From Marseilla massiliensis (GTDB lineage Bacteria > Bacteroidota > Bacteroidia > Bacteroidales > Bacteroidaceae), in contig NZ_JACJJG010000001.1 in assembly GCF_016899855.1 (NCBI RefSeq), positions 1-64,000 on the forward strand: a DNA stretch of 64,000 bases, in the 5' to 3' direction. Below are positions 49,724-64,000 of the stretch, one piece after another. The translations under genes and the position numbers were made by a program. The notes beneath the pieces were generated by a model. The model ran no database searches, was not told the origin of the DNA, and saw only the letters and a list, made by a program, of their open reading frames with translations. Each line of letters starts with the position of its first letter. Position 1 is the stretch's first letter.

Positions 49724-50065
49724 ATGGGATGGAAGAAACTGATTTTCGGAGAGAAGATGCCTGACAAGGACGACCCGAAGTATGAGAAACGGTATAAGAA
49801 GGAAGTGGAGGCAGGACGGAAAGCCGCACGTTTCCTGCGGATAGACAAGATGGCAGGGCGTGCGCAACGCTTTGCCTGCAAGCATCCGAAGTGGTTTCTC
49901 GGTATCGTGTTCGGCATCGTATTGGGATGCCTGGCACTTAATGTGTATCGCGTGGTATCGGTATGCATATTACCGGACAATGGCAGGCACGCCACGGCCA
50001 CCGAACGGCAGGAGATTCTTTTGAAACAAAAACAACCTATGAACCATGATGACGGACAGGATTAA
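49724..50065 (+). CDS. TraL-like small membrane protein (DUF3989 position)
   Basis: A 113-aa protein with a basic N-terminal part (KYEKRYKKEVEAGRKAARFLR), a single membrane helix (WFLGIVFGIVLGCLALNVYRVVSV) and a short tail. It lies between traK and traM and overlaps traM by 20 bp. Position and topology fit TraL (DUF3989) of Bacteroidales elements, although this copy is slightly longer at the N-terminus than I would expect. Confidence 0.7.
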   Translation: MGWKKLIFGEKMPDKDDPKYEKRYKKEVEAGRKAARFLRIDKMAGRAQRFACKHPKWFLGIVFGIVLGCLALNVYRVVSVCILPDNGRHATATERQEILLKQKQPMNHDDGQD

Positions 50066-51293
50066 CTTCAGACAACCCAAGTACGTGTTGCCGGCCATCC
50101 TCTACCCTTTGTTGCTGGTGACGGGGTATTTAGTGTTTGACATATTCGACACGGAGGTAGCAGAATCGCCCACTTCCCTACAAACCACCGAGTACCTGAA
50201 CCCGGAATTGCCGGAGGCGCAGATGCGCGATGACGGTATCGGAGGCAAGTATGAGAGCATGGTTAAGTCCTACGGCCGGATACAGGACTATTCCGCTGTA
50301 GAAAACATTGAACGGAACAACAATGAAACAGAGAAAGAAGATTACGATTCCCGCTATAGCGATGAAGACCTTGCCCTGCTCGATTCGGAAGCAGCCGCAA
50401 GGTCGGAGGAACTGGAACGTTTGCGTGAGATGCAGGAACGCCTGCGGCAAAGCGCCGAAAGAGGCGAAGCGATGGTGGCGGACACCACCGGGGTGCAACC
50501 GTTGAGCGAAGAAGAACGCCTAGCGCGAAGCGAGCAACGGCGCAAGGAGGCCTTGGCGGAGTTGGACAAGGCACTGGCAGAAGCCAGAAAGCAAGGGCAA
50601 AAAGGATTGCAGGACGTGGACAGCACGGACACGGAGAACCTCGCCCCCACCGGCAGTGTCGCCATAGGCGGCAAGGTGGAAATCAACGAAAATGCCGTGA
50701 ACGAGCTTGCCGAGAATGCCGAGAACGAGCAAGTGGTAAAAAAAGTGAAGACCTCTTCGGAGTACTTCAACACCTTGGCCGAAAACGAACCGGACCCCCG
50801 CTTGATAAAGGCCATCATCGACGAGGACATCAAGGCGGTGGAAGGCTCACGGGTGCGCTTGCGCCTGTTGGACGACGTGGAGATAGACGGCAAGGTGGTG
50901 ACCAAAGGCTCGTACCTGTATGCCACGATGAGCGGCTTCGGCAGCCAGCGCGTGAAAGGGAGCATCAAGAGCTTGCTGGTGGAGGACGAATTGGTGAAAG
51001 TGAACCTCTCCCTCTACGATACGGATGGGTTGGAGGGGCTTTATGTACCCGGTAGTTCCTTCAGGGAAACCACGCAGGATGTGGCATCCAACGCCCTCGG
51101 CAGCACGATGAGCATTAACAACGGAAATACCGGGAACACCTTTGCCCAATGGGGAATGCAGGCCATACAGAACGCCTATCAGCGCACGAGCAACGCCTTG
51201 TCAAAGGCCGTGCGCAAGAACAAGGCGAAGCTGAAATACGGCACGTTCGTCTATCTGGTGAACGGCAGGGATAAAAGGGACAATAATCGTTAG
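50046..51293 (+). CDS. traM: TraM, VirB10-like transfer protein
   Basis: A 415-aa protein with one N-terminal membrane helix (YVLPAILYPLLLVTGYLVF), a long acidic and charged linker (about 80-230, coiled-coil prone: RSEELERLREMQERLRQSAER) and a C-terminal beta-domain (about 270-415) with IKAIIDEDIKAVEGSRVRLRL and KGSYLYATMSGFGSQRVKG, the conserved TraM core. It spans the periplasm as the VirB10-type scaffold. A second ATG directly follows the first, so the start may be 50049. Confidence 0.93.
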   Translation: MMTDRINFRQPKYVLPAILYPLLLVTGYLVFDIFDTEVAESPTSLQTTEYLNPELPEAQMRDDGIGGKYESMVKSYGRIQDYSAVENIERNNNETEKEDYDSRYSDEDLALLDSEAAARSEELERLREMQERLRQSAERGEAMVADTTGVQPLSEEERLARSEQRRKEALAELDKALAEARKQGQKGLQDVDSTDTENLAPTGSVAIGGKVEINENAVNELAENAENEQVVKKVKTSSEYFNTLAENEPDPRLIKAIIDEDIKAVEGSRVRLRLLDDVEIDGKVVTKGSYLYATMSGFGSQRVKGSIKSLLVEDELVKVNLSLYDTDGLEGLYVPGSSFRETTQDVASNALGSTMSINNGNTGNTFAQWGMQAIQNAYQRTSNALSKAVRKNKAKLKYGTFVYLVNGRDKRDNNR

Positions 51294-51319
51294 ACACAAC
51301 AACCATAAGCAATAAGAAG

Positions 51320-52162
51320 ATGAAACTGACATCAGGAATCCTGGCCGTTGCCGCACTGCTGGCAGGACACGCGGCCAAGGCGCAGCAGACCTACAATGAA
51401 ATGGAACAGCTGACAGTGAACGAGCAGGTGACGACTGTCATTACCGCCACTGAACCTATCCGCTTCGTGGACATCTCCACGGACAAGATAGCGGGTGACC
51501 AGCCGATAAACAACACCATCCGCCTGAAACCAAAGGAGGCCGGACATGAAGATGGCGAAGTGCTTGCCATCGTCACCATTGTAACGGAACGCTACCGCAC
51601 ACAATACGCACTGCTTTATACGACCCGTTTGCAGGAGGCCGTGACAGACAAGGAGGTACAACCGGTAGAGATGACCGCCTACCACAATCCGGCGGTATCG
51701 CTTTCTACCGAAGACATGTACCGGTTCGCCCGTCAGGTATGGCTTTCGCCTGCCCGCTACCGGAACGTAAGTCGCAGGCAGCACCGGATGACCATGCGAC
51801 TGAACAACATCTACGCTGTAGGTGACTACTTCTTTATCGACTTCTCCATTGAGAACCGCACGGACATCCGCTTTGATATTGACGAAATCCGCGTCAAGCT
51901 GGCAGATAAGAAAGTATCGAAAGCCACCAACTCACAGGTCATCGAGCTAAAGCCGGAAATGGAACTGGAACAAAAGGGATCGTTCCTGCACGGATACCGC
52001 AATGTACTGGTGGTAAGGAAAATGACTTTTCCCAATGACAAGGTACTGACTATCGAGGTCAGCGAAAAACAGATTTCAGGACGTACTATCGCCCTGAACA
52101 TTGACTATGAGGACGTGCTTTGCGCGGACAGTTTCAATGAGGTCTTATTACAGGAGGAGTAA
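51320..52162 (+). CDS. traN: TraN, VirB9-like transfer protein (DUF4138)
   Basis: A 280-aa exported protein (signal MKLTSGILAVAALLAGHAAKAQQ). The first half forms a beta-domain (VTTVITATEPIRFVDISTDKIAGD) and the second half has NNIYAVGDYFFIDFSIENRT, the hallmark of TraN/DUF4138. It acts in the periplasm and outer membrane with TraM and TraO as the channel core. Confidence 0.93.
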   Translation: MKLTSGILAVAALLAGHAAKAQQTYNEMEQLTVNEQVTTVITATEPIRFVDISTDKIAGDQPINNTIRLKPKEAGHEDGEVLAIVTIVTERYRTQYALLYTTRLQEAVTDKEVQPVEMTAYHNPAVSLSTEDMYRFARQVWLSPARYRNVSRRQHRMTMRLNNIYAVGDYFFIDFSIENRTDIRFDIDEIRVKLADKKVSKATNSQVIELKPEMELEQKGSFLHGYRNVLVVRKMTFPNDKVLTIEVSEKQISGRTIALNIDYEDVLCADSFNEVLLQEE

Positions 52163-52167
52163 GGGAA

Positions 52168-52710
52168 ATGAAGAATGCAGAATTAATAATTAAGAATTTG
52201 GCTGTGCGAAAAGGCTTTGTCGCACTGGTTTTCTTGTTGGCAGCCATACTGCCCGGCTTTGCTGATGACCGGCATGGCAGAATACTAATTGGAACGGGAT
52301 TGCTGTATGAAAGGGGCATGGACTTGACCATCGGCTATGAGTACGAAACGAACTACCACCATGCGTGGGAGTTCTTCGGAAATGTCTATCTGAAATGGGA
52401 CGAATGTGAGGATTGCGGACACGTCTGCCCCGAATTGTTCTGGAACCATTACAATACGTGGGGTGTGGGTGCTGCCTACAAACCCTGCGTGTTCCGTAGC
52501 CGTAATCACCACGGCAACCTGCGCTTGGGCGGGTCGCTGGGCTCGGATAGGGACAAGGTGCTGGGCGGCATCCATGTGGGGTATGAGCATAGCTATGCGT
52601 TGCGCAAGGGCTGGAAGCTGTTTTGGCAGGCCAAGTGCGACCTGATGATAAAAGGGGAAGATTTGTTCCGGACAGGCATTGTCATCGGCGTGAAGATACC
52701 GACAAAATGA
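52168..52710 (+). CDS. traO: TraO-like outer-membrane protein
   Basis: A 180-aa protein with a signal peptide (VALVFLLAAILPGFA near residue 18) and alternating beta-strands of an outer-membrane barrel (GYEYETNYHHAWEFFGNVYLKW, GIHVGYEHSYAL, TGIVIGVKIP). The small TraO of Bacteroidales elements has this form and follows traN. A CEDCGHVC cluster is unusual. It starts 5 bp behind traN. Confidence 0.8.
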   Translation: MKNAELIIKNLAVRKGFVALVFLLAAILPGFADDRHGRILIGTGLLYERGMDLTIGYEYETNYHHAWEFFGNVYLKWDECEDCGHVCPELFWNHYNTWGVGAAYKPCVFRSRNHHGNLRLGGSLGSDRDKVLGGIHVGYEHSYALRKGWKLFWQAKCDLMIKGEDLFRTGIVIGVKIPTK

Positions 52711-52774
52711 AGAATTAAGAATGAAGAATCCGGCACGTGAAGCAGACAAATTTTACGGAATATATAATTAAGGT

Positions 52775-53455
52775 ATGAAAGGAAAGATGAAGAAGATAGG
52801 AAAAGCGTGGGCGGCAGTAGTGCTAATGCTGGTTGCCGTCCTTGTGGGCTGTGACGGGCATCACGACCCGTTGGACACCTCGATGAAAGTAGGACATATA
52901 CTTTGCACGGACGGCAAGACACGAAGCTACGAAGATTATGCGGGTTCCGGCAAGGAAGCCATAGCCGTGGTGTTCCATGTGAACCACGATGAAGAAATAA
53001 ATGGCACAGGCTATGCGGTCTATTTGCACGACCTTGCCCCGGAAGCCTTTGCTGACAGTTTGGGCATTGCGCAAGGAACGTCTGCCGACTTGGCGACTTA
53101 CGATGGAAACGAGAATACCTTTGCCTTGTATGACACAGACGATGTTTCTTCACCTATGGCCATGCAGGTGTTTGATATGTGGCGGTACGGGCAGAGTGCC
53201 TACGTACCTTCGGTGGCGCAGATGCGGTTGCTCTATGCCGCCAAGGAGTTTGTAAATCCCTACATAGAGGCTTGCGGCGGCGACCCGCTGTCGAACGAAG
53301 CCGATGGATGTTGGTATTGGACGAGTACCGAAGTGGAGGGGCAGGAAACCGCCAAAGCTTGGCTGTTCTCGATGGGGAGCGGTGCCATACAGGAAACGCC
53401 CAAACTGCAAGGGCACAAGGTGAGGGCGATAGTCACTCTGTATAATGAAGAATGA
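52775..53455 (+). CDS. DUF1566-like lipoprotein
   Basis: A 226-aa lipoprotein (signal WAAVVLMLVAVLVGC, lipobox LVGC). The C-terminal part has the DUF1566/Lcl-type pattern (AYVPSVAQMRLLYAAKEFVNP, CWYWTSTEVEG, AWLFSMGSGAIQETPKL), a C-type-lectin-related fold found in surface adhesins. It sits between traO and the coupling protein gene and may be a surface protein for mating contact. A weaker version of the same motif occurs in the lipoprotein at 38242. Confidence 0.7.
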   Translation: MKGKMKKIGKAWAAVVLMLVAVLVGCDGHHDPLDTSMKVGHILCTDGKTRSYEDYAGSGKEAIAVVFHVNHDEEINGTGYAVYLHDLAPEAFADSLGIAQGTSADLATYDGNENTFALYDTDDVSSPMAMQVFDMWRYGQSAYVPSVAQMRLLYAAKEFVNPYIEACGGDPLSNEADGCWYWTSTEVEGQETAKAWLFSMGSGAIQETPKLQGHKVRAIVTLYNEE

Positions 53456-53489
53456 TGAATGAATAATTAAGGATTAAGGAAAGTACGAG

Positions 53490-55676
53490 ATGGAAGAAAG
53501 CAAGGAACTGCAAGGCGCTTACAAGATATTCCGGACGGTGGTGTACGTGTCCGTCCTGCTGGAGTTTTTCATGTATGCGTTCAACCCGGCTGTGTTCGAC
53601 TATTGGAACGGCATCGTGTGTGACGTGCACGACCGCATGAAGACGTGGCTCATCTACCATGACGGCAACCTTGTGTACAGCAAGATTGCCACCTTCCTGC
53701 TTATCTGCATCACCTGCGTGGGTACGAGGAACAAGAAACACTTGGAGTTCGATGCACGGAGGCAGGTGCTTTACCCGCTGGTGTCGGGCATTGGGCTGTT
53801 GGTGCTTGCGGTGTGGCTGTTCGGGTATGAAATGGATGTCCGCCTTTACTCCATGCGCCTAAACGTCATCCTCTACATGGCGGCATCGGTGGTCGGTACG
53901 ATACTGGTTCACGTGGCATTGGACAACATCTCCAAATACCTGAAGGAAGGTTTGCTGAAAGACCGCTTCAACCTGGAGAACGAGAGCTTCGAACAATGCA
54001 CGGAGTTAGTGGAGAACAAATACTCGGTCAATGTGCCCATGCGTTACTATTACAAAGGCAAGTTCCGCAAGGGATGGGTGAACATTAGCAATCCGTTTAG
54101 GGGAACTTGGGTGGTCGGCACTCCGGGTAGCGGAAAGACCTTTTCCATCATCGAGCCGTTCATCCGGCAACATTCCGCAAAAGGCTTTGCCTTAGTAGTT
54201 TACGATTATAAGTTCCCTACATTGGCGACCAAGCTGTACTACCATTACAAAAAGAACCAGAAGCTGGGCAAACTGCCCAAAGGATGCAAATTCAATATTA
54301 TCAACTTTGTGAATGTGGAATACAGTCGCAGGGTGAACCCGATACAGGCGAAGTACATCCCCAACCTTGCCGCTGCCAGCGAAACGGCGGAAACATTGCT
54401 GGAGTCTTTGCAGAAAGGCAAGAAAGAAGGTGGCGGAGGTAGCGACCAGTTCTTCCAGACCTCGGCAGTGAACTTCTTGGCCGCCTGCATCTACTTCTTC
54501 GTGAACTACGAACGGGAGCCTTACGACAAGGACGGGAACAAACTGTATGCGGAGAAAGTGCAGGACAAGGAGACCAAGTTCTGGAAACCTACGGGCGTGG
54601 TGCGCGACCGCAAGGGCGGTAATATTGTGGAGCCTGCCTATTGGTTGGGTAAATACTCGGATATGCCGCACATCCTGTCGTTCCTGAACGAGAGCTACCA
54701 GACCATCTTCGAGGTATTACAGACCGACAACGAGGTGGCACCGCTGCTTGGCCCGTTCCAGACGGCATTCCAGAACAAGGCTATGGAACAGTTGGAAGGC
54801 ATGATCGGTACGCTGCGTGTCTATACTTCCCGACTTGCCACCAAGGAATCGTACTGGATATTCCACAAGGACGGCGATGATTTCGATTTGAAGGTGAGTG
54901 ACCCGAAGAATCCCAGCTACCTGCTGATAGCCAACGACCCGGAGATGGAGAGCATCATCGGGGCGTTGAACGCCCTGATACTGAACAGACTTGTGACACG
55001 TGTAAATACAGGGCAGGGAAAGAACATCCCCGTAAGTATCATCGTGGACGAGCTACCCACGCTGTATTTTCACAAGATAGACCGACTTATCGGAACGGCA
55101 CGAAGCAACAAAGTGAGCGTGGCATTGGGCTTTCAGGAACTGCCGCAGTTGGAAGCCGATTACGGGAAAGTGGGTATGCAGAAGATTATCACCACAGTGG
55201 GCAACGTGGTTTCAGGCTCCGCCCGCTCTAAAGAAACGCTTGAATGGCTGAGCAACGACATCTTTGGCAAGGTGGTACAGCTGAAACGTGGCGTGACCAT
55301 CGACAGGGACAAGACCAGCATCAACCTGAACGAGAACATGGACAACCTTGTTCCGGCATCCAAGATAAGCGACCTGCCTACAGGCTGGATATGCGGACAG
55401 GTGGCACGCGACTTCGTGAAGACCAAGACCGGACGGGGCGGCAGCATGAATATACAGGAAGCCGAAGAGTTCAAGACCTCGAAATTTTTCTGCAAGACCG
55501 ACTTCGACATGGAAGAGATTAAGAAAGAGGAAGACGGGTATGTGCCGCTTCCCAAGTTCTATACTTTTCCATCGAAAGAAGAAAGGGAACGCATCCTGTA
55601 CCGGAATTTTGTGAAAGTGGGCCAGGACGTGAAGGAGATGATAAAGGACGTGGTAAACAAGAAAGGGGCAAGATGA
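53490..55676 (+). CDS. Type IV coupling protein (VirD4/MobC family)
   Basis: A 728-aa inner-membrane ATPase that brings the DNA-relaxase complex to the secretion channel. Three to four N-terminal membrane helices (about 15-150, for example VLYPLVSGIGLLVLAVWLFGY) precede the motor domain with Walker A VVGTPGSGKTFSII at about 208-221 and Walker B VSIIVDELPTLYF near 516. LGFQELPQLEADYG is the usual coupling-protein motif. The gene overlaps the lysozyme gene by 4 bp (ATGA). The mobilisation genes that accompany it in other elements are not found in this window. Confidence 0.93.
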   Translation: MEESKELQGAYKIFRTVVYVSVLLEFFMYAFNPAVFDYWNGIVCDVHDRMKTWLIYHDGNLVYSKIATFLLICITCVGTRNKKHLEFDARRQVLYPLVSGIGLLVLAVWLFGYEMDVRLYSMRLNVILYMAASVVGTILVHVALDNISKYLKEGLLKDRFNLENESFEQCTELVENKYSVNVPMRYYYKGKFRKGWVNISNPFRGTWVVGTPGSGKTFSIIEPFIRQHSAKGFALVVYDYKFPTLATKLYYHYKKNQKLGKLPKGCKFNIINFVNVEYSRRVNPIQAKYIPNLAAASETAETLLESLQKGKKEGGGGSDQFFQTSAVNFLAACIYFFVNYEREPYDKDGNKLYAEKVQDKETKFWKPTGVVRDRKGGNIVEPAYWLGKYSDMPHILSFLNESYQTIFEVLQTDNEVAPLLGPFQTAFQNKAMEQLEGMIGTLRVYTSRLATKESYWIFHKDGDDFDLKVSDPKNPSYLLIANDPEMESIIGALNALILNRLVTRVNTGQGKNIPVSIIVDELPTLYFHKIDRLIGTARSNKVSVALGFQELPQLEADYGKVGMQKIITTVGNVVSGSARSKETLEWLSNDIFGKVVQLKRGVTIDRDKTSINLNENMDNLVPASKISDLPTGWICGQVARDFVKTKTGRGGSMNIQEAEEFKTSKFFCKTDFDMEEIKKEEDGYVPLPKFYTFPSKEERERILYRNFVKVGQDVKEMIKDVVNKKGAR

Positions 55677-56191
55677 GATTGGTTTTATGTGTTTTATCCC
55701 TGCTGTTCCTGTTTTCACTCAACTTGACAGCGCAAGCCTCCGACAAAGGAAAGCGGCTGAGGATATACGAATTGCCACCGTTCGAGCGTGCCATATTTTG
55801 CACCAAGCATTACGAGGGTTGGCATGGAAGCCGTAAGCATCTGCCTTACATTGGATACGGGCACAAATTATTGCCTGGTGAACGGCTGACCCATAAGATA
55901 AGCCGCGCACAGGGCGACAGCCTGCTCCGTGCCGATATGCGGAAGCTGTGCCGTATGTTCCGCCGCTTCGGTCGTGACTCGACACTGCTTGCCTGCCTTG
56001 CCTATCAGGTAGGCCCGTACCGTCTGTTGGGAAACGAGAAACTTCCCAAAAGCAGACTGATACGCAAGCTGGAACGCGGCAACAGGGACATCCATAAGGA
56101 ATATGTGTCCTTTCGGAAATGGAAAGGCAGGGTTATCCCAAGCATAGAAAGGCGCCGACGGGTGGAACTCGCCCTGTTGTTTGAGCCATGA
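55673..56191 (+). CDS. Conjugation lysozyme (GH24-like, TraQ type)
   Basis: A 172-aa exported muramidase (signal RLVLCVLSLLFLFSLNLTAQA). The T4-lysozyme-type active site is visible: KHYEGWHGSRKHLPYIGYGHKLLPGE (Glu about 45, with IGYGH about 62). It opens the peptidoglycan locally for the transfer channel. TraQ of CTnDOT-type elements has the same role. It is the last gene of the transfer operon. Confidence 0.85.
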   Translation: MRLVLCVLSLLFLFSLNLTAQASDKGKRLRIYELPPFERAIFCTKHYEGWHGSRKHLPYIGYGHKLLPGERLTHKISRAQGDSLLRADMRKLCRMFRRFGRDSTLLACLAYQVGPYRLLGNEKLPKSRLIRKLERGNRDIHKEYVSFRKWKGRVIPSIERRRRVELALLFEP

Positions 56192-56302: not shown

Positions 56303-57520
56303 ATGGCAACATTCAAACTAAAATTCCGCCCTTCCACCGCTGAAGGCAAGCCTGGCACTATGTATTTCCAAGTGACTCACCGCAGAAGCACGAGAGCAGT
56401 TTATACCGATTACCACATCACACCCGAAGAATGGGACGAACGGACTTCGTTCATCCGCATCATTGGCACACCGGAACGGCAGGCGGAACTGCAGCTGATT
56501 GTCTCCAAGATACGATGGGACTGCAAGCGGATCGCCGCGTTCATTACGGAAAGGGAACAGGCCATGCTGGAATACACGGCGGACGACATCGTGTCGGCAT
56601 TCCGTCTCCTGCCACCCTGCCAGACCTGGTTCAGCTTCATCCACGGTATGGTGGCGAAAAAGCTCCGCATCGGCCGATTAGGTACCGCCAAGACCTACCG
56701 TGATGCCTTGATGAGCTTCTCCCGTTTCCGCAACGGTGAGGACCTAACCATCGACGCACTGGACGCGGAGACCATGAACCTGTACGAGGCATGGCTGAAA
56801 GGACGGGGCGTGAAGCGCAATTCCTCGTCGTGCTACCTGCGTACCTTGCGCACCCTCTACCGCAAGGCGGTCGAAACCGGACTGACAACCGACAAGCATA
56901 TTTTCCGCCACGTGTTTACCGGCTTTGCCAAGACCGCCAAACGCGCCATTCCGTTAGGCTCATTGCGTGCCATCAGGCAGCTTCAGTTGTCCGAAGGCTC
57001 TGCCATTGCCTTCGCACGGGACCTCTTCATGCTGATTGTCTACCTTCAGGGCATCTCGTTTGTGGACCTTGCCTATTTGAAGAAAGACGACATCCGAAAC
57101 GGGCAGCTGCACTACAGCCGCAAGAAGACCGGACAGGAGCTGACCGTCGGTTGGGAATCCGTCATGCAGGACATTGTGGACAACTACATCCACCTGACGA
57201 AAGGCAGTCCGTATCTCTTACCCATTATCACTAAAACGGACGGCACGGAACGGCAGCAATACGAGCGGATGGAACATAAGGTGAACTATTACCTCAAGAA
57301 AATCGGCACGATGGTCGGGTTACAGGCATCCCTGACGACATATACGGGGAGGCATACCTGGGCCAGCATCCTGCGGGACATGGGCACCAGCCTGTCCGTC
57401 ATCAGCAAAGGCTTGGGGCATGAAAGTCTGAAGACCACACAAATCTATCTTTCCTCCATCGACATGGAGGGCGTGGTGAAAGCCAACCGAAAAATGATAG
57501 GAAAAATTTTTCGTAAATAA
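56303..57520 (+). CDS. Tyrosine recombinase next to an invertible promoter
   Basis: A 405-aa site-specific recombinase. The N-terminal arm-type DNA-binding domain (FKLKFRPSTAEGKPGTMYFQ) is followed by a SAM-like core-binding domain (about 105-200) and the catalytic domain. The box-II TGRHTWASIL (about 347-356) and the nucleophile Tyr about 382 (TTQIYLSS) are intact. At the place of the first catalytic Arg the sequence reads QGISFVD, a Ser instead of Arg, as reported for IntDOT and seen in many Bacteroidetes recombinases. Thirty bp behind its stop begins a segment bounded by 22-bp inverted repeats, its most likely substrate. It could alternatively be the integrase of the conjugative element. 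Confidence 0.88.
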   Translation: MATFKLKFRPSTAEGKPGTMYFQVTHRRSTRAVYTDYHITPEEWDERTSFIRIIGTPERQAELQLIVSKIRWDCKRIAAFITEREQAMLEYTADDIVSAFRLLPPCQTWFSFIHGMVAKKLRIGRLGTAKTYRDALMSFSRFRNGEDLTIDALDAETMNLYEAWLKGRGVKRNSSSCYLRTLRTLYRKAVETGLTTDKHIFRHVFTGFAKTAKRAIPLGSLRAIRQLQLSEGSAIAFARDLFMLIVYLQGISFVDLAYLKKDDIRNGQLHYSRKKTGQELTVGWESVMQDIVDNYIHLTKGSPYLLPIITKTDGTERQQYERMEHKVNYYLKKIGTMVGLQASLTTYTGRHTWASILRDMGTSLSVISKGLGHESLKTTQIYLSSIDMEGVVKANRKMIGKIFRK

Positions 57521-57619
57521 TAACCGGAAATGTTCGACAAATTTCACACCTGTATAATATGAAACGGCGGATTTTTGCAACTGACTGATTATCAATGTGT
57601 ATTTTTGTGTGGAATCCCA

Positions 57620-57656
57620 TTTTAGTCGAACAAATGCAGCTTTTGTTCGACTAAAA
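57620..57656. terminator. Hairpin inside the invertible segment
   Basis: TTTTAGTCGAACAAA (57620-57634) pairs with TTTGTTCGACTAAAA (57642-57656) around a 7-nt loop. It could terminate read-through from the recombinase gene or serve as a recombinase or host-factor site. Confidence 0.55.
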
Positions 57657-57712
57657 TTCCGAATCTTTAAAATTTTCTGCCTATAAAATGGCTCTGTATT
57701 AAATCTTTTTAT

Positions 57713-57720
57713 TACCTTTG
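57713..57720 (+). promoter_or_regulatory. TACCTTTG -7 promoter box
   Basis: A full match to TAnnTTTG, 7 bp before the right inverted repeat. The transcript would start close to 57727. A clear -33 box was not found. Confidence 0.65.
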
Positions 57721-57821
57721 CAACGTGTCCGCCGTTTCATATTATACAGCAATAGTAAAGCGGTGGGTATAGAAGAGACTTAATTGATTGAAAACTAAAT
57801 ACTTGTGATATGGAGGTAAAA

Positions 57822-57884
57822 ATGTTAAAGCGCATTGCGCTTTGCTCTTCTCGTCACATAACAACGGCAGGCCATTGTTGCTGA
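57822..57884 (+). CDS. Short leader ORF (20 aa) upstream of the UpxY-like gene
   Basis: ATG at 57822 with a strong Shine-Dalgarno sequence (GGAGG at 57812-57816), which is unusual for Bacteroidetes. It encodes MLKRIALCSSRHITTAGHCC and stops at 57882-57884. The hairpin AAAGCGC/GCGCTTT (57827-57843) lies inside it. Similar leader sequences precede UpxY genes in Bacteroides polysaccharide loci as far as I recall. It could couple translation to antitermination. Whether the peptide is made is unknown. Confidence 0.45.
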   Translation: MLKRIALCSSRHITTAGHCC

Positions 57885-58024
57885 GTTTTTACTCCAGAAT
57901 GCTGCCGCTAAACCTAAAGAATGCTGTAAACAACGCCTGAAAAACGTCTTGAAAATGTTTGAAAAGCGTGGTGATTCAAATTCGGAGAGGTATCAGTTAG
58001 CCGTCATGCGATTGCCATGGGGGT

Positions 58025-58043
58025 AGCGTAAAGAACGCTTTTT
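58025..58043 (+). terminator. Small terminator-like hairpin in the leader
   Basis: AGCGT, a 5-nt loop, ACGCT and a run of five T. The stem is weak. It lies about 195 bp before the UpxY-like start and might be the site where antitermination acts. The rest of 57885-58237 holds no gene and ends in GAATGAAGAATGAAG-type repeats. Confidence 0.4.
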
Positions 58044-58237
58044 CGTGAATGAAGAATGAAGAGTGAAGAATTAAGAGTTTACCATGCGGCATGACAACAT
58101 AACGATGCTTCATAACTTAGCTCAAAACATCTTTTGCTCGTTATAACAGCGAAACAGTCATCATTCTTCAATCTTCATTGGCTTACGCCGAACGTTGTTT
58201 CATTATTCTTCATTCATCATTCTTAATTTATCTCACA

Positions 58238-59740
58238 GTGCCTGACAAACTCAACAGTGTAGATTACCATTGGTTTCTTGTCTGCACCAAACCGGGACAT
58301 GAACCAGAGTTGTGCTCGCTCATCGAGCGCGAAAAGGACAAGATACGGAACATACTGGAGGTCTATTGCCCTACGCATACCAAGGTCTATGTGCGCCGTG
58401 GTGACAATGAACAGCAACAGCCCTTTTTCAACGGCTACGTGTTCGTGCTTGCCACCCAAGATGCATTGGTAGAGTTTCTCCGTGACAACAATTCCGACGC
58501 TTATATTTGGTACAACCGGAAGTGCACACCGGACGAGAAAGCCACAGTCTGCACCATCCCCGAATCGCAGATGCGTGCATTCCGTGACTACAACGAGAAC
58601 TATGCCGACAAGGTGATTGTGTTGGAACGGCCTTACACCGACTATGCGGTTAACGCGAAAACGGACGAGCCGAACGAAATCGTGCGTGTGGTTGACGGTC
58701 CGCTTGCCGGATGTGAAGGCTACATTTGCCGCTTCCACAAGAAAAAAGGACTGGTATTCCGCGTTCAGGGCTTGATACCGGGCAGCTGGCTGACCGTCAC
58801 TTACCCCAATGTATCCGACCTCCACGTTGTCCGACTACACAATGCCGAGGGCGACCGTTTGTCCATAGGCACGGAGAAAGGACGCGCCGTTGACCTGCTT
58901 ACCGGCATCCTGCAAGGCTGCGGTTACGGAGAACGCACACAGTCCCTGTTTTATGAACTGATGGAGCGTCTTGCCGCCGACCTGTCGTTGGAGGCTCTTT
59001 GCAAGTATTTCCAGAAGCAAGGGGAAAAGGCATTGGCAGACCGTCTTGCCAAACTGACTACCAAAGAGGCAGAACTTCTGATAAACCTTGCCCGTTATGA
59101 GCATGACACGCCCGGATATGTGAAGGAAAACTGGCCAAGCCTCATTTTCCGCCCGCTCCTTACGCCGACATCGGGAATAGTCATAGAAAAAGACAAGGGT
59201 GAAGTGGAGTTGCAACATAAGGATTACACGGAAATCATCCGCAGGGTGGACATCACCGAAGAGGTCTATTACCCCAGCAGGCAGGAGGACGGGAAAGTCA
59301 CCACTGCCTATTATGCCCACATCGGCATGAGGAAGGAAAAGGACGACCTCGTTTTCTTCGCCAACTGGGACGATTTTCTTCGCGAATATTTCCTGACGGC
59401 AGGAAAAGCCAACGAGAAGTTGGTTTCCGGTAAGGTGCAGAAAGTCCGTAACGAGATTACACTTAAGGAAACGGAAAAGCTCATTGAGTCTTTCCGCAAC
59501 TATGCGCCTACATTATATAAGGTATTGACGGATGCGGATTCTGCCGTAAAAGCCGTGCAGGACTTTAAGGTCGGTGAAGATACGTTGAATGTCTTTACCA
59601 TCCGGTCTTCAGCACAGGCAAAGGATGCGGCAAAGGACAAGCTGATACAGACCTGCGTCCGCATCTGCAAGGAAATCAACACCACCAACCACCTTGCCGT
59701 ATGGCGCAGGTACCTGCGGACGGTATGGCTGCACAATTGA
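58238..59740 (+). CDS. UpxY-like NusG-family antiterminator with long C-terminal extension
   Basis: A 500-aa protein whose first about 200 residues match UpxY/RfaH-type NusG paralogues: the NGN domain starts HWFLVCTKPGHEPELCSLIE and ends near YVFVLATQDALVEFL, and a KOW-like segment follows (VVDGPLAGCEGYICRFHKKKGLVFRV). Normal UpxY proteins end at roughly 170-190 aa. Here about 300 more residues follow, helical then beta-rich, with no domain I recognise. I place the start at GTG 58238, since the frame upstream runs only through repeat DNA to a TTG. It should load on RNA polymerase in the leader and let it read the downstream genes. It is the first gene under the candidate invertible promoter. 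Confidence 0.8.
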   Translation: MPDKLNSVDYHWFLVCTKPGHEPELCSLIEREKDKIRNILEVYCPTHTKVYVRRGDNEQQQPFFNGYVFVLATQDALVEFLRDNNSDAYIWYNRKCTPDEKATVCTIPESQMRAFRDYNENYADKVIVLERPYTDYAVNAKTDEPNEIVRVVDGPLAGCEGYICRFHKKKGLVFRVQGLIPGSWLTVTYPNVSDLHVVRLHNAEGDRLSIGTEKGRAVDLLTGILQGCGYGERTQSLFYELMERLAADLSLEALCKYFQKQGEKALADRLAKLTTKEAELLINLARYEHDTPGYVKENWPSLIFRPLLTPTSGIVIEKDKGEVELQHKDYTEIIRRVDITEEVYYPSRQEDGKVTTAYYAHIGMRKEKDDLVFFANWDDFLREYFLTAGKANEKLVSGKVQKVRNEITLKETEKLIESFRNYAPTLYKVLTDADSAVKAVQDFKVGEDTLNVFTIRSSAQAKDAAKDKLIQTCVRICKEINTTNHLAVWRRYLRTVWLHN

Positions 59741-59841
59741 AGTTGACAAGGTATCAGTTGACAAGGCAACAAGGTTCTGAATAGTTTCACTAATGGCATC
59801 TAAAACCTTGTTAACTAGTTAACTAGTCAACGAGTCAACTT
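59741..59841. repeat. Imperfect inverted array of GTTGAC/GTTAAC 8-mers
   Basis: The left arm 59741-59776 (AGTTGACAAGG..., two GTTGACAAGG copies) and right arm 59804-59841 (GTTAACTA repeated, then GTCAACGA and GTCAACTT) are imperfect reverse complements. Short tandem 8-mers of this kind occur between Bacteroidetes genes. It lies between the UpxY-like gene and the next gene and could form an RNA hairpin. Confidence 0.55.
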
Positions 59842-59856
59842 GTTACCTAAAATAAA

Positions 59857-60978
59857 ATGCTTACATTTATCCAATTCTCCTCCCGTTGGAAGCAGCTCCA
59901 TCACCCCACCATGAACGTGGATGGTGACGTGGCTTTCTTTTATCAGCTGTACGTCAGACTGTATCATCTTATCGGACAGGAAGCGAAGTGTTTCGACAAT
60001 CATAAAATATTTCACTTTCTGCTCTATATAGAGAATACCGTTGCCGTCGGGATTGACGGCGTTTATGAATACAGGTACCGCTGCGTAGGCGATGTGGACA
60101 GCCGCTGGTGCGACGGATTTGACATGAGTGCCAATGCAGATTCTGAAGTCCACAACCTCGTGGGCAGAGCCGTGGCGGACGCAAAATATAGCGCCCTTCG
60201 GCAATGGATGGTCGAAAGCGTGCTGTCAGGTGATTTCTCCCGTTTGAGTGAAATGCTGGCATGGTTTGTGCGCGAGGACAAAATCCTGCAGCAGGTCTTT
60301 CCCGACCTGCGTTGCCGCAAGGCGATGTTCATGCAGCTCGTTGGAAATAAACAAACTGCCAAGAATATGCTGTGGGCAGATCTTGCTTTCAACTGGCATG
60401 ACAAGCGCGGCGACTCTTTGGCAAATACCATAGCCAAACAGTTCCGCTATGAAGCATCTTTTGTAGAGGGAAAGGAAAAGACTTTGCTGAAGGAAGCGGC
60501 AGAAATACTCGATGCTATCCGTTCCGAACGACTGGATACTTATACGGTCATTGAAATGAAAGACGAACGCACGTTTACCTTGCTCCACAGGGACGGACGT
60601 ATGTTCAGTGACGTGATTCTTCCGCAGCCGATGCCTGAGAATGCACAAGGCTGTCATATTGCCGTCCAACTCGTCACATACAATAATATAACATACATAA
60701 GCGGTTCAGCAGTCCGGCTTGATAAAGAAGCCCTGCCTACATGGAACGGCGAAACCAACTGGAACGACATCGTGCAGAAAGAGCAGGATGCGGCGAAGCT
60801 CACATCCTTCACCACCACGTTCGGCAAGCGGATGTGCTTATATGATGACCTTTACACCGTTCCGGAAGATCCGGAGGAAGCCTATTACGCCGATATGGGC
60901 ATCCATTTCGACGAGCCGAACATTTTTGATTTTCTCGGAGGTCGGCCGAACGGCAGGGTAATCTATTTTGGCAGTTGA
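59857..60978 (+). CDS. Protein of unknown function in the UpxY-like operon (373 aa)
   Basis: I do not recognise this protein. The N-terminal third (MLTFIQFSSRWKQLHHPTMNVDGDV...) looks beta-rich, the middle is helical (WADLAFNWHDKRGDSLANTIAKQF; EKTLLKEAAEILDAIRSERL), and the last part is beta-rich (FTLLHRDGRMFSDVILPQP), ending in NGRVIYFGS. There is no signal peptide, membrane helix or catalytic motif. It follows the UpxY-like gene by 116 bp on the same strand and is separated by the GTTGAC repeat array. It is not similar to the UpxZ inhibitors that usually follow UpxY. Confidence 0.7.
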   Translation: MLTFIQFSSRWKQLHHPTMNVDGDVAFFYQLYVRLYHLIGQEAKCFDNHKIFHFLLYIENTVAVGIDGVYEYRYRCVGDVDSRWCDGFDMSANADSEVHNLVGRAVADAKYSALRQWMVESVLSGDFSRLSEMLAWFVREDKILQQVFPDLRCRKAMFMQLVGNKQTAKNMLWADLAFNWHDKRGDSLANTIAKQFRYEASFVEGKEKTLLKEAAEILDAIRSERLDTYTVIEMKDERTFTLLHRDGRMFSDVILPQPMPENAQGCHIAVQLVTYNNITYISGSAVRLDKEALPTWNGETNWNDIVQKEQDAAKLTSFTTTFGKRMCLYDDLYTVPEDPEEAYYADMGIHFDEPNIFDFLGGRPNGRVIYFGS

Positions 60979-60999: not shown

Positions 61000-61854
61000 A
61001 TGGATAACAACAGACAGAAGAATGTACAGACGGTAGCTGTTCACGTTGACAGCCAAAATGTAACTGGTTTTGGTTTTGTCGCCTATACCAATTCTCGCGT
61101 TGAGAAGCTGCGGGACGAGGGGCGTTATGATGCGGCAATAAAACTGAAAAAGTATCTCAGGAAGTTCCTCAACTATTTAGGCAAGAACGAAGTGCCTTTC
61201 AAGGACTTCGATGCCCTGCTGATGCGCAACTACCACACCTGGCTGAAGAACCAAGAGTTAGGACGCAACACCATTTCCCTCTATATCCGGAATTTGAAGC
61301 GTGTCTATAAACTTGCTGTAAATGACGGACTTGCTGCTGACTGCAACCCTTTCGAGGGCCTGGACGTAAGCTACCGCGTCAAGAAATACAGGTACGGCCT
61401 GACGCTCGATGATGTGAAACGTCTGCGCGACCTTGACCTGAGCGGTGAATCAGAGATGACCGTCTTCGCTCGCGACATCTTCCTGTTCACGGTTTATACC
61501 AAGGGCATGAGGAGCGACGACATCTTCCGCCTGACAAGCAAGAATATCAAGAACGGACAGCTCACTTACCGCCAGCACGTCACTGGCAAGGAAATCTCCC
61601 TTCCCTGGGAGCTGGCGATGCAGGAGATTGCCGACCGCTACAAGCGGAAAGGCTCGACCCTCCTCTTCCCCGTCATCACGGCAAAATCCCCACACGAGCA
61701 ATGGATACAGTATGACGGTATTCTGCACCGCATTAATTACAATCTGAAGAAATTGGGCGAAAAGATAGGACTCGATTATCCGCTGAATCTTACCGTCGCA
61801 AGGCATTCGTGGGAAAGTATGACCAAGAGCGTAAGCATAAGCGACCTATTGTAA
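61000..61854 (+). pseudogene. Truncated tyrosine recombinase lacking the catalytic Tyr
   Basis: A 284-aa tyrosine recombinase that lacks its end. The SAM-like core-binding domain (about 20-125), the first catalytic Arg (KGMRSDDI near 168) and the box-II ARHSWESM (about 266-273) are present, but the frame stops ten residues later. The usual 40-50 residues with the Tyr-bearing helix are absent, and no other frame continues them. The protein should therefore be unable to cut DNA but may still bind it. It could be a decaying relic or a regulator. It starts 21 bp behind the unknown 59857 gene. Confidence 0.75.
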
Positions 61855-61901: not shown

Positions 61902-62420
61902 ATGCTAAAGGACATTCCACAAACTCTGACATGCCCTGTATGCAGGTCGCGGATTCCTTTCACCCTCAGCGGATTGCTGCTTGGCGAACGATTCACCTGT
62001 CACGGATGCCCGGCTATCGTATCATTGTCTACGGAAAGCCGGCAGGCGGTACAATCCGTAACGGATGAATTCGACCGCATTTTACATCATCAGACATTAA
62101 TGGAAAATGATTTGCCCTCAGTAGCTCAAAAATTTACCGGTCTTCCTTGGGAAGAACTCATTGGCAGTTCCTTAAACGCAGCGGAAAATGCTGAAGCAGC
62201 CTTGGCTATGTATATGACCCGCTTCTTGAAAGAGCATGGCCTTGAAGATTCTTTTGAATCCATCCTGATAGAGATGAGACTTGAGCATCCTCATGTTGAA
62301 GCCTCGGATGCGGATAGAACATCGGAAGACAAGAGTTCCAATGCCTCATTCAGCCTCCCCCTGTCGGCTGTTATTCCATTCGGCTCATTAGGGATTGAAA
62401 CACGACCCTTTTCAAAATGA
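61902..62420 (+). CDS. Zinc-ribbon protein of unknown function
   Basis: A 172-aa protein that starts with a zinc-ribbon (TCPVCRSRIPF at about 10-20 and FTCHGCPAIV at about 31-40), followed by a helical region (about 60-135: VTDEFDRILHHQTLMENDLPS, AEAALAMYMTRFLKEHG) and a low-complexity tail. No signal peptide is present. Its stop overlaps the start of the next gene (ATGA), so the two are probably partners. Function unknown. Confidence 0.65.
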   Translation: MLKDIPQTLTCPVCRSRIPFTLSGLLLGERFTCHGCPAIVSLSTESRQAVQSVTDEFDRILHHQTLMENDLPSVAQKFTGLPWEELIGSSLNAAENAEAALAMYMTRFLKEHGLEDSFESILIEMRLEHPHVEASDADRTSEDKSSNASFSLPLSAVIPFGSLGIETRPFSK

Positions 62421-62953
62421 AACAAGATTCACAAAAAGAGATGCGCAAGGAGATGTTCGACCGGATGGAAGCCGAATTGCAGAAAACCTGCAAGCCGGAA
62501 GAACGGATGTTTGCCTTGCATCCTGACGAAGACCATATCATCGTTTCGCACGCCTTGTTTCTGATGATGAGCAAGCCGTTGGCGGTCAAATTGCCAAGTT
62601 TGAAAGGTCGTTACCTGTTGCGCAAGTTGGAGGAAGAGATGCTGACGGCATGCCTGACCGAGTCTGACGGGTTCCCCGAACTGCTGCGTTATTGCAACCT
62701 CCTGTACGAAGTCTTTCCTTACGAACTGGCAGCGGCGGCACGCAATGCAGCCATTGCATCCAAAATCAGGAAATTGCAGGCTATCGGAATGGTTGCCGCA
62801 GGATATGGCGGTGATATGGATGATGACACAGTGGATGACATCCTTGACGACAGCCTGGGCATAGACTGGCGCATACCGACCGGCAAGGCCCTGCTGAGCG
62901 AGAAGGATACAAAGCACCCGCTGCTCAAAGACTTCGAGACACCGTTCATTTAA
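62417..62953 (+). CDS. Unknown helical protein coupled to the zinc-ribbon gene (178 aa)
   Basis: A soluble protein, helical throughout (EMRKEMFDRMEAELQKTC; LRKLEEEMLTACLTESDGF; ELAAAARNAAIASKIRKL), with a Gly/Asp-rich segment (GYGGDMDDDTVDDILDDSLG) near 130-150 that could bind metal or act as linker. I do not recognise a family. It ends the run of unknown genes; 153 bp without a gene follow before rfbD. Confidence 0.65.
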   Translation: MKQDSQKEMRKEMFDRMEAELQKTCKPEERMFALHPDEDHIIVSHALFLMMSKPLAVKLPSLKGRYLLRKLEEEMLTACLTESDGFPELLRYCNLLYEVFPYELAAAARNAAIASKIRKLQAIGMVAAGYGGDMDDDTVDDILDDSLGIDWRIPTGKALLSEKDTKHPLLKDFETPFI

Positions 62954-63105: not shown

Positions 63106-64000
63106 ATGAATATTTTGGTAACCGGCGCAAACGGCCAGCTTGGCAACGAGATGCGCATAGTAAGCGGACAGACCGCAGACAATTACATATTTACCGACGT
63201 GGTTAACATCGAGGGCGTCGAAACCACGCTGCTCGACATAACCGACGCGGATGCAGTAAGGCGCATCGTGAAGGAAAACGGCGTGCGCTGCATAGTCAAC
63301 TGCGCTGCCTATACGAACGTGGACAAGGCCGAGAGCGACGAGGCTCTCTGCCGTAAGCTCAACGCCGAGGCTCCGAAGATACTTGCCGGGGGCATGAAGG
63401 AAGTAGGCGGCCTGCTCATTCAGATTTCGACCGACTACGTGTTCGGCGGCGACCCGTACAACACCCCGTGCCGCGAGGACCAGAAGGGCACTCCGACGGG
63501 AGTCTACGGCGCTACCAAGCTCGAGGGCGAGCAGAACATCGAGGCCGTAAGCTGCGACCACGTAATAATACGTACCGCATGGCTGTATTCCGAGTTCGGA
63601 AAGAACTTCGTCAAGACCATGCTCAACCTGACGGCCACGAAGCCCAAGCTGAACGTGGTGTTCGACCAGGCAGGCACCCCGACCTACGCCTACGACCTGG
63701 CAGTGGTTATAAAGACCGTGCTTGCCGACTATGCGGCTGAGAATCCGCAGTCGGGCTACAGCAAGACTGGCGTCTACCACTTCAGCAACGAAGGCGTATG
63801 CTCATGGTACGACTTCACGAAGAAGATAGCCGAACTTGCAGGCAACACCGGTTGCGACATCCAGCCCTGCCACAGCGACGAGTTCCCCAGCCCCGTGACA
63901 CGCCCTGCATACTCCGTGCTCGACAAGACAAAGATAAAGCAGGTGTTCGGAGTAAGCGTCCCTTACTGGACCGACTCGCTTAAAATATGTATGGACAACA
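63106..64000 (+). CDS. rfbD: dTDP-4-dehydrorhamnose reductase, 3' end cut by the window
   Basis: The last enzyme of dTDP-L-rhamnose synthesis, a short-chain dehydrogenase that reduces dTDP-4-dehydrorhamnose with NAD(P)H. The start ATG is at 63106; the NAD(P)-binding motif TGANGQLGNE (residues 6-15), the STDYVFGG block (about 108-115) and the catalytic YGATK (about 134-138) are all present. About 298 codons are inside the window and the frame is still open, so a few residues are missing. dTDP-rhamnose feeds surface polysaccharides, so the gene may belong to the polysaccharide locus behind the phase switch or be an ordinary chromosomal gene next to it. Confidence 0.93.
   Translation, partial: MNILVTGANGQLGNEMRIVSGQTADNYIFTDVVNIEGVETTLLDITDADAVRRIVKENGVRCIVNCAAYTNVDKAESDEALCRKLNAEAPKILAGGMKEVGGLLIQISTDYVFGGDPYNTPCREDQKGTPTGVYGATKLEGEQNIEAVSCDHVIIRTAWLYSEFGKNFVKTMLNLTATKPKLNVVFDQAGTPTYAYDLAVVIKTVLADYAAENPQSGYSKTGVYHFSNEGVCSWYDFTKKIAELAGNTGCDIQPCHSDEFPSPVTRPAYSVLDKTKIKQVFGVSVPYWTDSLKICMDN

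Follow-up and report, generated by a model that had tools for sequence, protein, structure and literature searches.

Does the 156-bp segment between a recombinase gene and a gene for a UpxY-like antiterminator in Marseilla massiliensis act as an invertible promoter, and if so, what does it switch? The window analysed here is 64,000 nt long and comprises the first 64 kb of contig C111 (164,255 bases), within a source assembly of 321 contigs where the segment is present in a single orientation. The locus is very probably a phase-variation switch of a glycan operon borne on a conjugative element, in which the recombinase R1 would flip a promoter that feeds a leader RNA and, through it, antitermination by the long UpxY-like protein UpxY-L. 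In particular, R1 would recombine two 22-bp repeats and thereby flip the segment. In the ON orientation, the promoter would fire through the right repeat into the structured leader and then UpxY-L, which, acting at or near the leader, would keep RNA polymerase running through the long operon; in the OFF orientation, the operon would be silent, its promoter facing back toward the 3′ end of R1. In addition, the N-terminal arm-binding domain of R1 probably holds three TGTTYGACHAA sites.

Inverted repeats and promoter box

57550..57571, + strand: left inverted repeat and crossover core (repeat search, shuffles, core pairs in homologous loci)
57572..57727, no strand: invertible segment, 156 bp, ON orientation here (reversed in 9 of the 23 loci, L022 included)
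57713..57720, + strand: -7-like promoter box TACCTTTG (sequence; box near one core in 23/23 loci)
57728..57749, - strand: right inverted repeat and crossover core (repeat search, shuffles, core pairs in homologous loci)

The original prediction, made from the letters of the window, described two perfect 22-bp inverted repeats around 156 bp, and the repeat search recovers exactly this arrangement: positions 57550-57571 and 57728-57749 are complementary at 22 of 22 positions and lie 156 nt apart. The 22-bp repeat has no further copy in the 64 kb at up to 3 mismatches, and none of 100 dinucleotide shuffles of the window contains such a repeat. The outward promoter box that had been placed inside the segment is likewise present, as TACCTTTG at 57713-57720 on the + strand. 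No TTTG is found about 20 nt upstream of it, so that its -33 element is weak or absent, which speaks against the switch model. Across the 23 homologous segments with a scored core pair, every one has a TAnnTTTG box less than 50 nt from one core, and on one side only, which is better evidence for a promoter than the single match in the window; TACCTTTG is a putative promoter.

Both orientations occur among related loci

Crossover cores were examined in 30 loci carrying the module, and a scored pair was found in 23 (the other seven are L053, L058, L065, L068, L072, L074 and L109); the core motifs were derived from the examined loci themselves and some loci are closely related, so that the 23 cannot be treated as independent. 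Of the 23, 14 have the box directed at the operon (ON) and 9 have it directed away (OFF), and the flipped segment that the original prediction proposed to look for in related genomes is therefore present there.

The sharpest case is genome G301, where two loci (L063 and L110) are colinear in the left flank (89.8% over 128 columns, beyond which the similarity ends) and in the right flanks (95.2% and 95.9%), and their segments align at 97.5% in reverse, with breakpoints at the repeats; the two are perhaps paralogues or strain variants within one genome bin. The window and L022 show the same pattern, with 84.7% identity on the left, 80.0% across the reversed segment and 81.9% on the right. L022 is also the one locus returned by an exact 22-mer scan of the species-genome collection, and its segment is reversed. 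These comparisons set homologous loci, rather than cells of one clone, side by side. They argue strongly, by comparison, for inversion of the segment between its repeats, and the flip presumably occurs in this strain as well. The central claim of the original prediction, an invertible promoter beside a likely recombinase and driving a UpxY-like operon, thus gains support from the two orientations in related loci.

The adjacent recombinase

56303..57520, + strand: R1, tyrosine recombinase, 405 aa, likely invertase (Pfam; alignment to solved Xer proteins)

The gene before the segment does encode a tyrosine recombinase, as predicted: its Pfam matches fall exclusively in tyrosine recombinase families (Phage_integrase at 47.6 bits, Phage_int_SAM_5 at 59.8 bits and Arm-DNA-bind_5 at 26.1 bits, cut-off 22.6) and delineate arm-binding-like, SAM-like and catalytic domains. 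Aligned to solved Xer proteins, R1 retains RH.W, GLGH (box II) and TTQIY with the catalytic Tyr; where XerD has GLR with the first catalytic Arg, the aligned residues of R1 are GIS, a point against the switch model. IntDOT is likewise known to lack this Arg.

R1 is the probable enzyme that flips the segment. Another recombinase could instead do so in trans, with R1 a bystander or a decaying neighbour, and such a division has a counterpart in P. vulgatus, where the available text of PMC13114119 describes a promoter that flips despite a broken adjacent recombinase. Moreover, a complete or partial R1 aligns upstream of UpxY-L in 12 of 29 loci (4 of the other 17 have less than 700 nt upstream), yet segments without R1 are found in both orientations, L063 and L110 among them. 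However, R1 in the window is a full 405-aa ORF that keeps all three motifs named above, it directly adjoins the segment, and its arm-binding domain would suit the accessory sites described below. Inversion in trans is therefore unlikely for this locus, and R1 is retained as the putative invertase.

Putative accessory sites within and beside the segment

57531..57541, + strand: accessory (arm-like) site 1, outside the segment, TGTTCGACAAA (exact TGTTYGACHAA match, after the R1 stop)
57619..57657, no strand: 19-bp inverted repeat, the predicted hairpin, read as two accessory sites (repeat search; motif reading)
57622..57632, - strand: accessory site 2, inside the segment (at fixed distance in 23/23 loci)
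57644..57654, + strand: accessory site 3, inside the segment (variable among relatives in direction and presence)

A hairpin inside the segment had been singled out as an unusual trait. Its inverted repeat is real, with arms at 57619-57637 and 57639-57657 that are 95% complementary over 19 nt, but it is not kept as a hairpin, the order being direct in four relatives. Both arms are copies of the 11-bp motif TGTTYGACHAA, and a third copy lies outside the segment. These are the only three exact matches in the 64 kb, where 0.28 are expected; 1 of 100 shuffles also has three. All 23 segments have an inner site with at least 9 of 11 positions matching, 51-55 nt away from the promoter-distal core (5.65 loci in shuffled regions), and 16 of the 23 have a left outer site, which in 15 lies 22 nt from the core (1.81 loci in shuffled regions); to the right of the segment, a site occurs in 3 loci against 1.7 expected, which is little above chance. 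The motif was drawn from the same loci, and more weight belongs to the fixed distances than to how often the motif occurs. Among relatives, the second inner site varies more; it is inverted in the window, in direct order in L069, L073, L075 and L083, and missing in others.

An RNA hairpin, working as a terminator or a regulatory stem, would explain the complementarity of the arms and the matching changes in both arms of L055. As a terminator it was rejected, since neither arm is followed by a T-run and the terminator scan lists none there. The direct order in the four relatives, the single motif in some loci, the constant distance of the first motif to the core and the third copy beyond the segment also speak against a hairpin, and an RNA role is quite improbable. 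The motifs fit better as protein-binding DNA sites; they may be arm sites of R1, whose arm-binding domain is the natural candidate to bind them. Arm sites are documented in IntCTnDOT-type integrases (PMC8138268, in the part available), and a search for literature pairing arm-type sites with invertible promoters found no such case in the limited part of its matches that was covered.

Loci without a complete switch

A segment locked ON in the window, its repeats being relics without recombination, is very improbable, because the appearance of locking in L058, L065 and L068 and the loss of the segment from L072 are set against window repeats that are identical over 22 bp where those of many relatives differ, and against equally intact repeats at the near-identical locus of genome G495 (L024/L054), which differs from the window at 1 of 162 inner bases. 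The identity of the window repeats suggests a recent exchange between them.

Several relatives have departed from this arrangement. L058, L065 and L068 keep the forward box but have no scored core pair. L072 (G285:C85) has lost the promoter segment although R1 can be aligned from end to end, and only one core-like site is left before the leader, which suggests that the switch was deleted. The contig of L053 (G133:C25) starts at the right crossover core and could reflect an assembly break on a segment of mixed orientation. Overall, 7 of 30 loci have no scored core pair, and at many the R1 gene is missing, truncated or fragmented, so that some copies are locked or served in trans.

A covarying leader RNA

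57804..58041, + strand: structured leader RNA, five helices (covariation over 24 loci)
57810..57884, + strand: 24-codon ORF inside the leader (same length in 23/25 loci)

Between the right repeat and UpxY-L, 24 loci (L054 being left out as nearly identical to the window) share a structure of 32 pairs with 93.2% of cells paired; 15 of the 32 pairs show two-sided change, and the covariation score is 0.249, compared with 0.174 in shuffles. None of 500 shuffles is as high in pairing, two-sided change or covariation score, and shifting the partners reduces all of the measures. Deriving the structure from the same sequences favours it over the shifted versions, and relatedness can inflate the scores. 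Further pair types do not exceed the shuffles (80 of 500 as high). Folded as a single sequence, the window leader does not stand out from its shuffles (11 of 100 fold equally well; z = -1.25), and the claim of a leader RNA therefore rests on covariation.

A search model built from the first three helices matches 5 places in the window's genome and 24 places in 13 of 20 chosen genomes. Five of these 24 matches lie outside the model's training set, namely L054, which is nearly a copy of the window, and four loci not seen before; at each of these four, UpxY-L follows within 400 nt. Across the order, under stricter filters that may lose weak matches, the leader is found in 1 of 393 genomes, the window's own. 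It has no Rfam match at the gathering score, and 13 sub-threshold matches up to E 10 were discarded as evidence of a known RNA; among the literature matches listed, none reports a UpxY leader RNA in its title or abstract. The leader RNA is thus provisionally new. UpxY proteins are known to prevent termination in the untranslated region (PMC7315117, in the part available), and UpxY-L would act on this leader.

The 24-codon ORF inside the leader ends in Cys-Cys in most loci, and the two exceptions to its length arise from an earlier ATG picked by the script (L072) and an extra base (L066). A leader peptide was rejected, as its differences by codon position (1717/1632/2037) and BLOSUM scores do not exceed those of column shuffles (128 of 500 as good). 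A terminator-like stem at 58025-58039 in the window is not a general feature, its pairs being unkept in many relatives.

The long UpxY-like protein

58238..59740, + strand: UpxY-L, 500 aa, with NusG-like first ~190 residues and a ~300-aa conserved C-terminal part (Pfam, NCBIfam, alignment)

The UpxY-like gene expected after the segment is confirmed by its NGN domain, which scores 35.3 bits against Pfam NusG (cut-off 22.2). Homologues place its start at the GTG at 58238 and not at the longest candidate, the TTG at 58178. Against the UpxY family of NCBIfam (NF033644) the protein scores 72.6 bits, below the cut-off of 100, and it is named UpxY-like for that reason; KOW4_SPT5, at 12.8 bits, is also below its cut-off of 27. 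A profile of residues 11-187 spans positions 6-165 of the NusG chain 8f5g. Altogether, 22 UpxY-L proteins, including the window's, align over their length with the ~300-aa extension conserved. These C-terminal residues match no family at cut-off (DHquinase_II, at E 0.025, is below it), and a single-sequence structure prediction of the protein had a mean pLDDT of 40.8 and was not used.

The downstream operon and a Tyr-less paralogue

59857..60978, + strand: p373, conserved protein of unknown function (after UpxY-L in 13/29 loci)
61000..61854, + strand: R2, recombinase paralogue ending before box II and the catalytic Tyr (alignment; 16 loci)
61902..62953, + strand: p172 and p178, small genes of unknown function (present in a few relatives)
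63106..64000, + strand: rmlD, first glycan-synthesis gene of a cluster that runs on to ~82.36 kb of the contig (RmlD, 301.9 bits)

The original prediction had the switched module consist of the long UpxY-like protein and several unknown genes, but past six genes after the switch a glycan-synthesis cluster begins, at 63106. The locus L052 contains 18 cluster ORFs, among which rmlD and nine others could be assigned to families: an epimerase, which we take to be RmlB-type, a MatE-type flippase, glycosyltransferases, EpsG, WbsX, a pyruvyl transferase and an NTP transferase. From these glycan-synthesis genes, the operon is therefore read as a surface-polysaccharide operon. The cluster ends in second rmlD- and rmlB-like copies (contig C111, 80283-82358; L052 and L076), the latter split over several ORFs, with one of the cuts being the border of two fetched loci. 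A YjbH-like gene follows the cluster, as do AAA-ATPase-like, HNH-like and LRR-TIR-like genes (contig C111, 83342-91075; L076), which by eye are possibly defence genes.

Nearer the switch, p373 has no Pfam match above cut-off, no NCBIfam match at E ≤ 0.1 and no PHROG match at E ≤ 0.001. Among the 24 loci whose sequence extends 2.6 kb or more beyond UpxY-L, 16 carry R2, and in 16 of 16 (15 of them aligned) it stops before box II and the catalytic Tyr; in the same 16 loci, no forward frame encodes box II from around the end of R2 to 400 nt past it. Because its last residues are alike (such as DLL or DIL) in 14 of 16, this ending is not a random truncation. Compared with solved structures, R2 matches nothing at E ≤ 0.01, and in a narrow test of the literature, the wording 'lacking the catalytic tyrosine' was absent from the papers matched. 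R2 may regulate the flip, or it may just as well have some other DNA-binding role.

Distribution and mobile context

50046..56191, + strand: conjugative-element genes (TraM, TraN, MobC-type coupling protein, lysozyme-like), with further ORFs among them (NCBIfam, Pfam)

The genes upstream of R1 suggest that the switch lies on a conjugative element, with scores of 245.5 bits to TIGR03779, 258.8 bits to TIGR03780, 488.3 bits to NF041326 (below its cut-off of 900) and 33.8 bits to Phage_lysozyme. A protein search with UpxY-L across 399 genomes of the family returned matches in 14, and the long type in 12; the matches in G583 and G434 (28% and 33%) are partial and were not counted, nor were two 28% matches in the window's own genome counted as the long type. 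Further copies are located on contigs C210, C199 and C122 of that genome; C35 has a fragment, and C33 carries a leader at its end.

The locus L054 in genome G495 belongs to another genus and is 97.9% identical to the window over 5.7 and 3.0 kb, with a 1.6-kb insertion between, a likeness that suggests transfer from one genus to another. The R1 of L054 is less similar (93% at the protein level). The insertion (L054 5699-7304, at window position ~59831-59847) parts UpxY-L from p373 and contains a 428-aa ORF that is transposase-like by eye. A DNA search with 421 bp around the switch matched 14 of 200 genomes of the genus, mostly over short stretches, and besides the window's own genome it reached modules only via G133 (80%, at a contig start) and G053. 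No relative of UpxY-L was confirmed among 94 pattern matches in viral contigs, and plasmids yielded one match of 22.8%, in Segatella copri. The parts of the module are not universal; R1, p373 and R2 are found at 12, 13 and 16 of the 29 loci, although contig ends truncate some of these.

Comparison with known switches

The basic switch is of a known kind and matches published phase-variable polysaccharide loci on integrative and conjugative elements (ICEs), to the extent that the available text of those papers describes them. In particular, PMC8748976 reports ICE-borne loci with an invertase gene, an invertible promoter with a TANNTTTG box, upxY first and glycan genes on a conjugative element, so that the arrangement, which the original prediction thought to look new, had already been published. 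In the available part of that paper, a long UpxY, a leader RNA, accessory sites and a Tyr-less paralogue go unmentioned; the likeness is drawn from gene content, promoter box and conjugative context. The P. vulgatus CL10 locus has a recombinase, an invertible promoter, upxY and a large polysaccharide locus on a predicted ICE, and its inversion was shown by PCR, but its recombinase is broken (PMC13114119, in part). In B. fragilis, the tyrosine recombinase Tsr19 (BF2766) flips the adjacent promoter of an EPS operon, while also acting on a distant promoter, a likeness drawn from its description in the accessible text of PMC4747536; Mpi similarly flips polysaccharide promoters, but it is a serine recombinase acting on many distant regions (same source and extent), whereas R1 is a tyrosine recombinase. 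Finally, LoaP is a specialised NusG paralogue whose function has been studied with an operon leader containing a hairpin, and is described for Bacillota, Actinomycetota and Spirochaetota (PMC12691694, in the part available); the leader here is another one, with five helices, and its binding by UpxY-L is putative.

What may be new is the variant, with its 500-aa UpxY-L, covarying leader, accessory sites at fixed distances and Tyr-less R2; the roles proposed here for the accessory sites, the leader, the UpxY-L extension and R2 are putative. A layered polysaccharide switch of a hitherto undescribed type, in which an arm-site-dependent invertase is joined by an operon-encoded Tyr-less paralogue, produced in the ON state alone and acting back on inversion, and by a dedicated structured leader recognised by a long UpxY-type antiterminator, can be offered tentatively, as a reading that is doubtful as a whole. 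If it were true, the need for arm sites may make inversion directional or regulated. The loci form a distinct lineage of phase-variable glycan loci, with several copies in some genomes and near-identical copies in two genera. They make testable the use of arm sites by promoter invertases, the role of a conserved Tyr-less recombinase in an operon that it might regulate, and the recruitment of UpxY-type antiterminators via a structured leader RNA.
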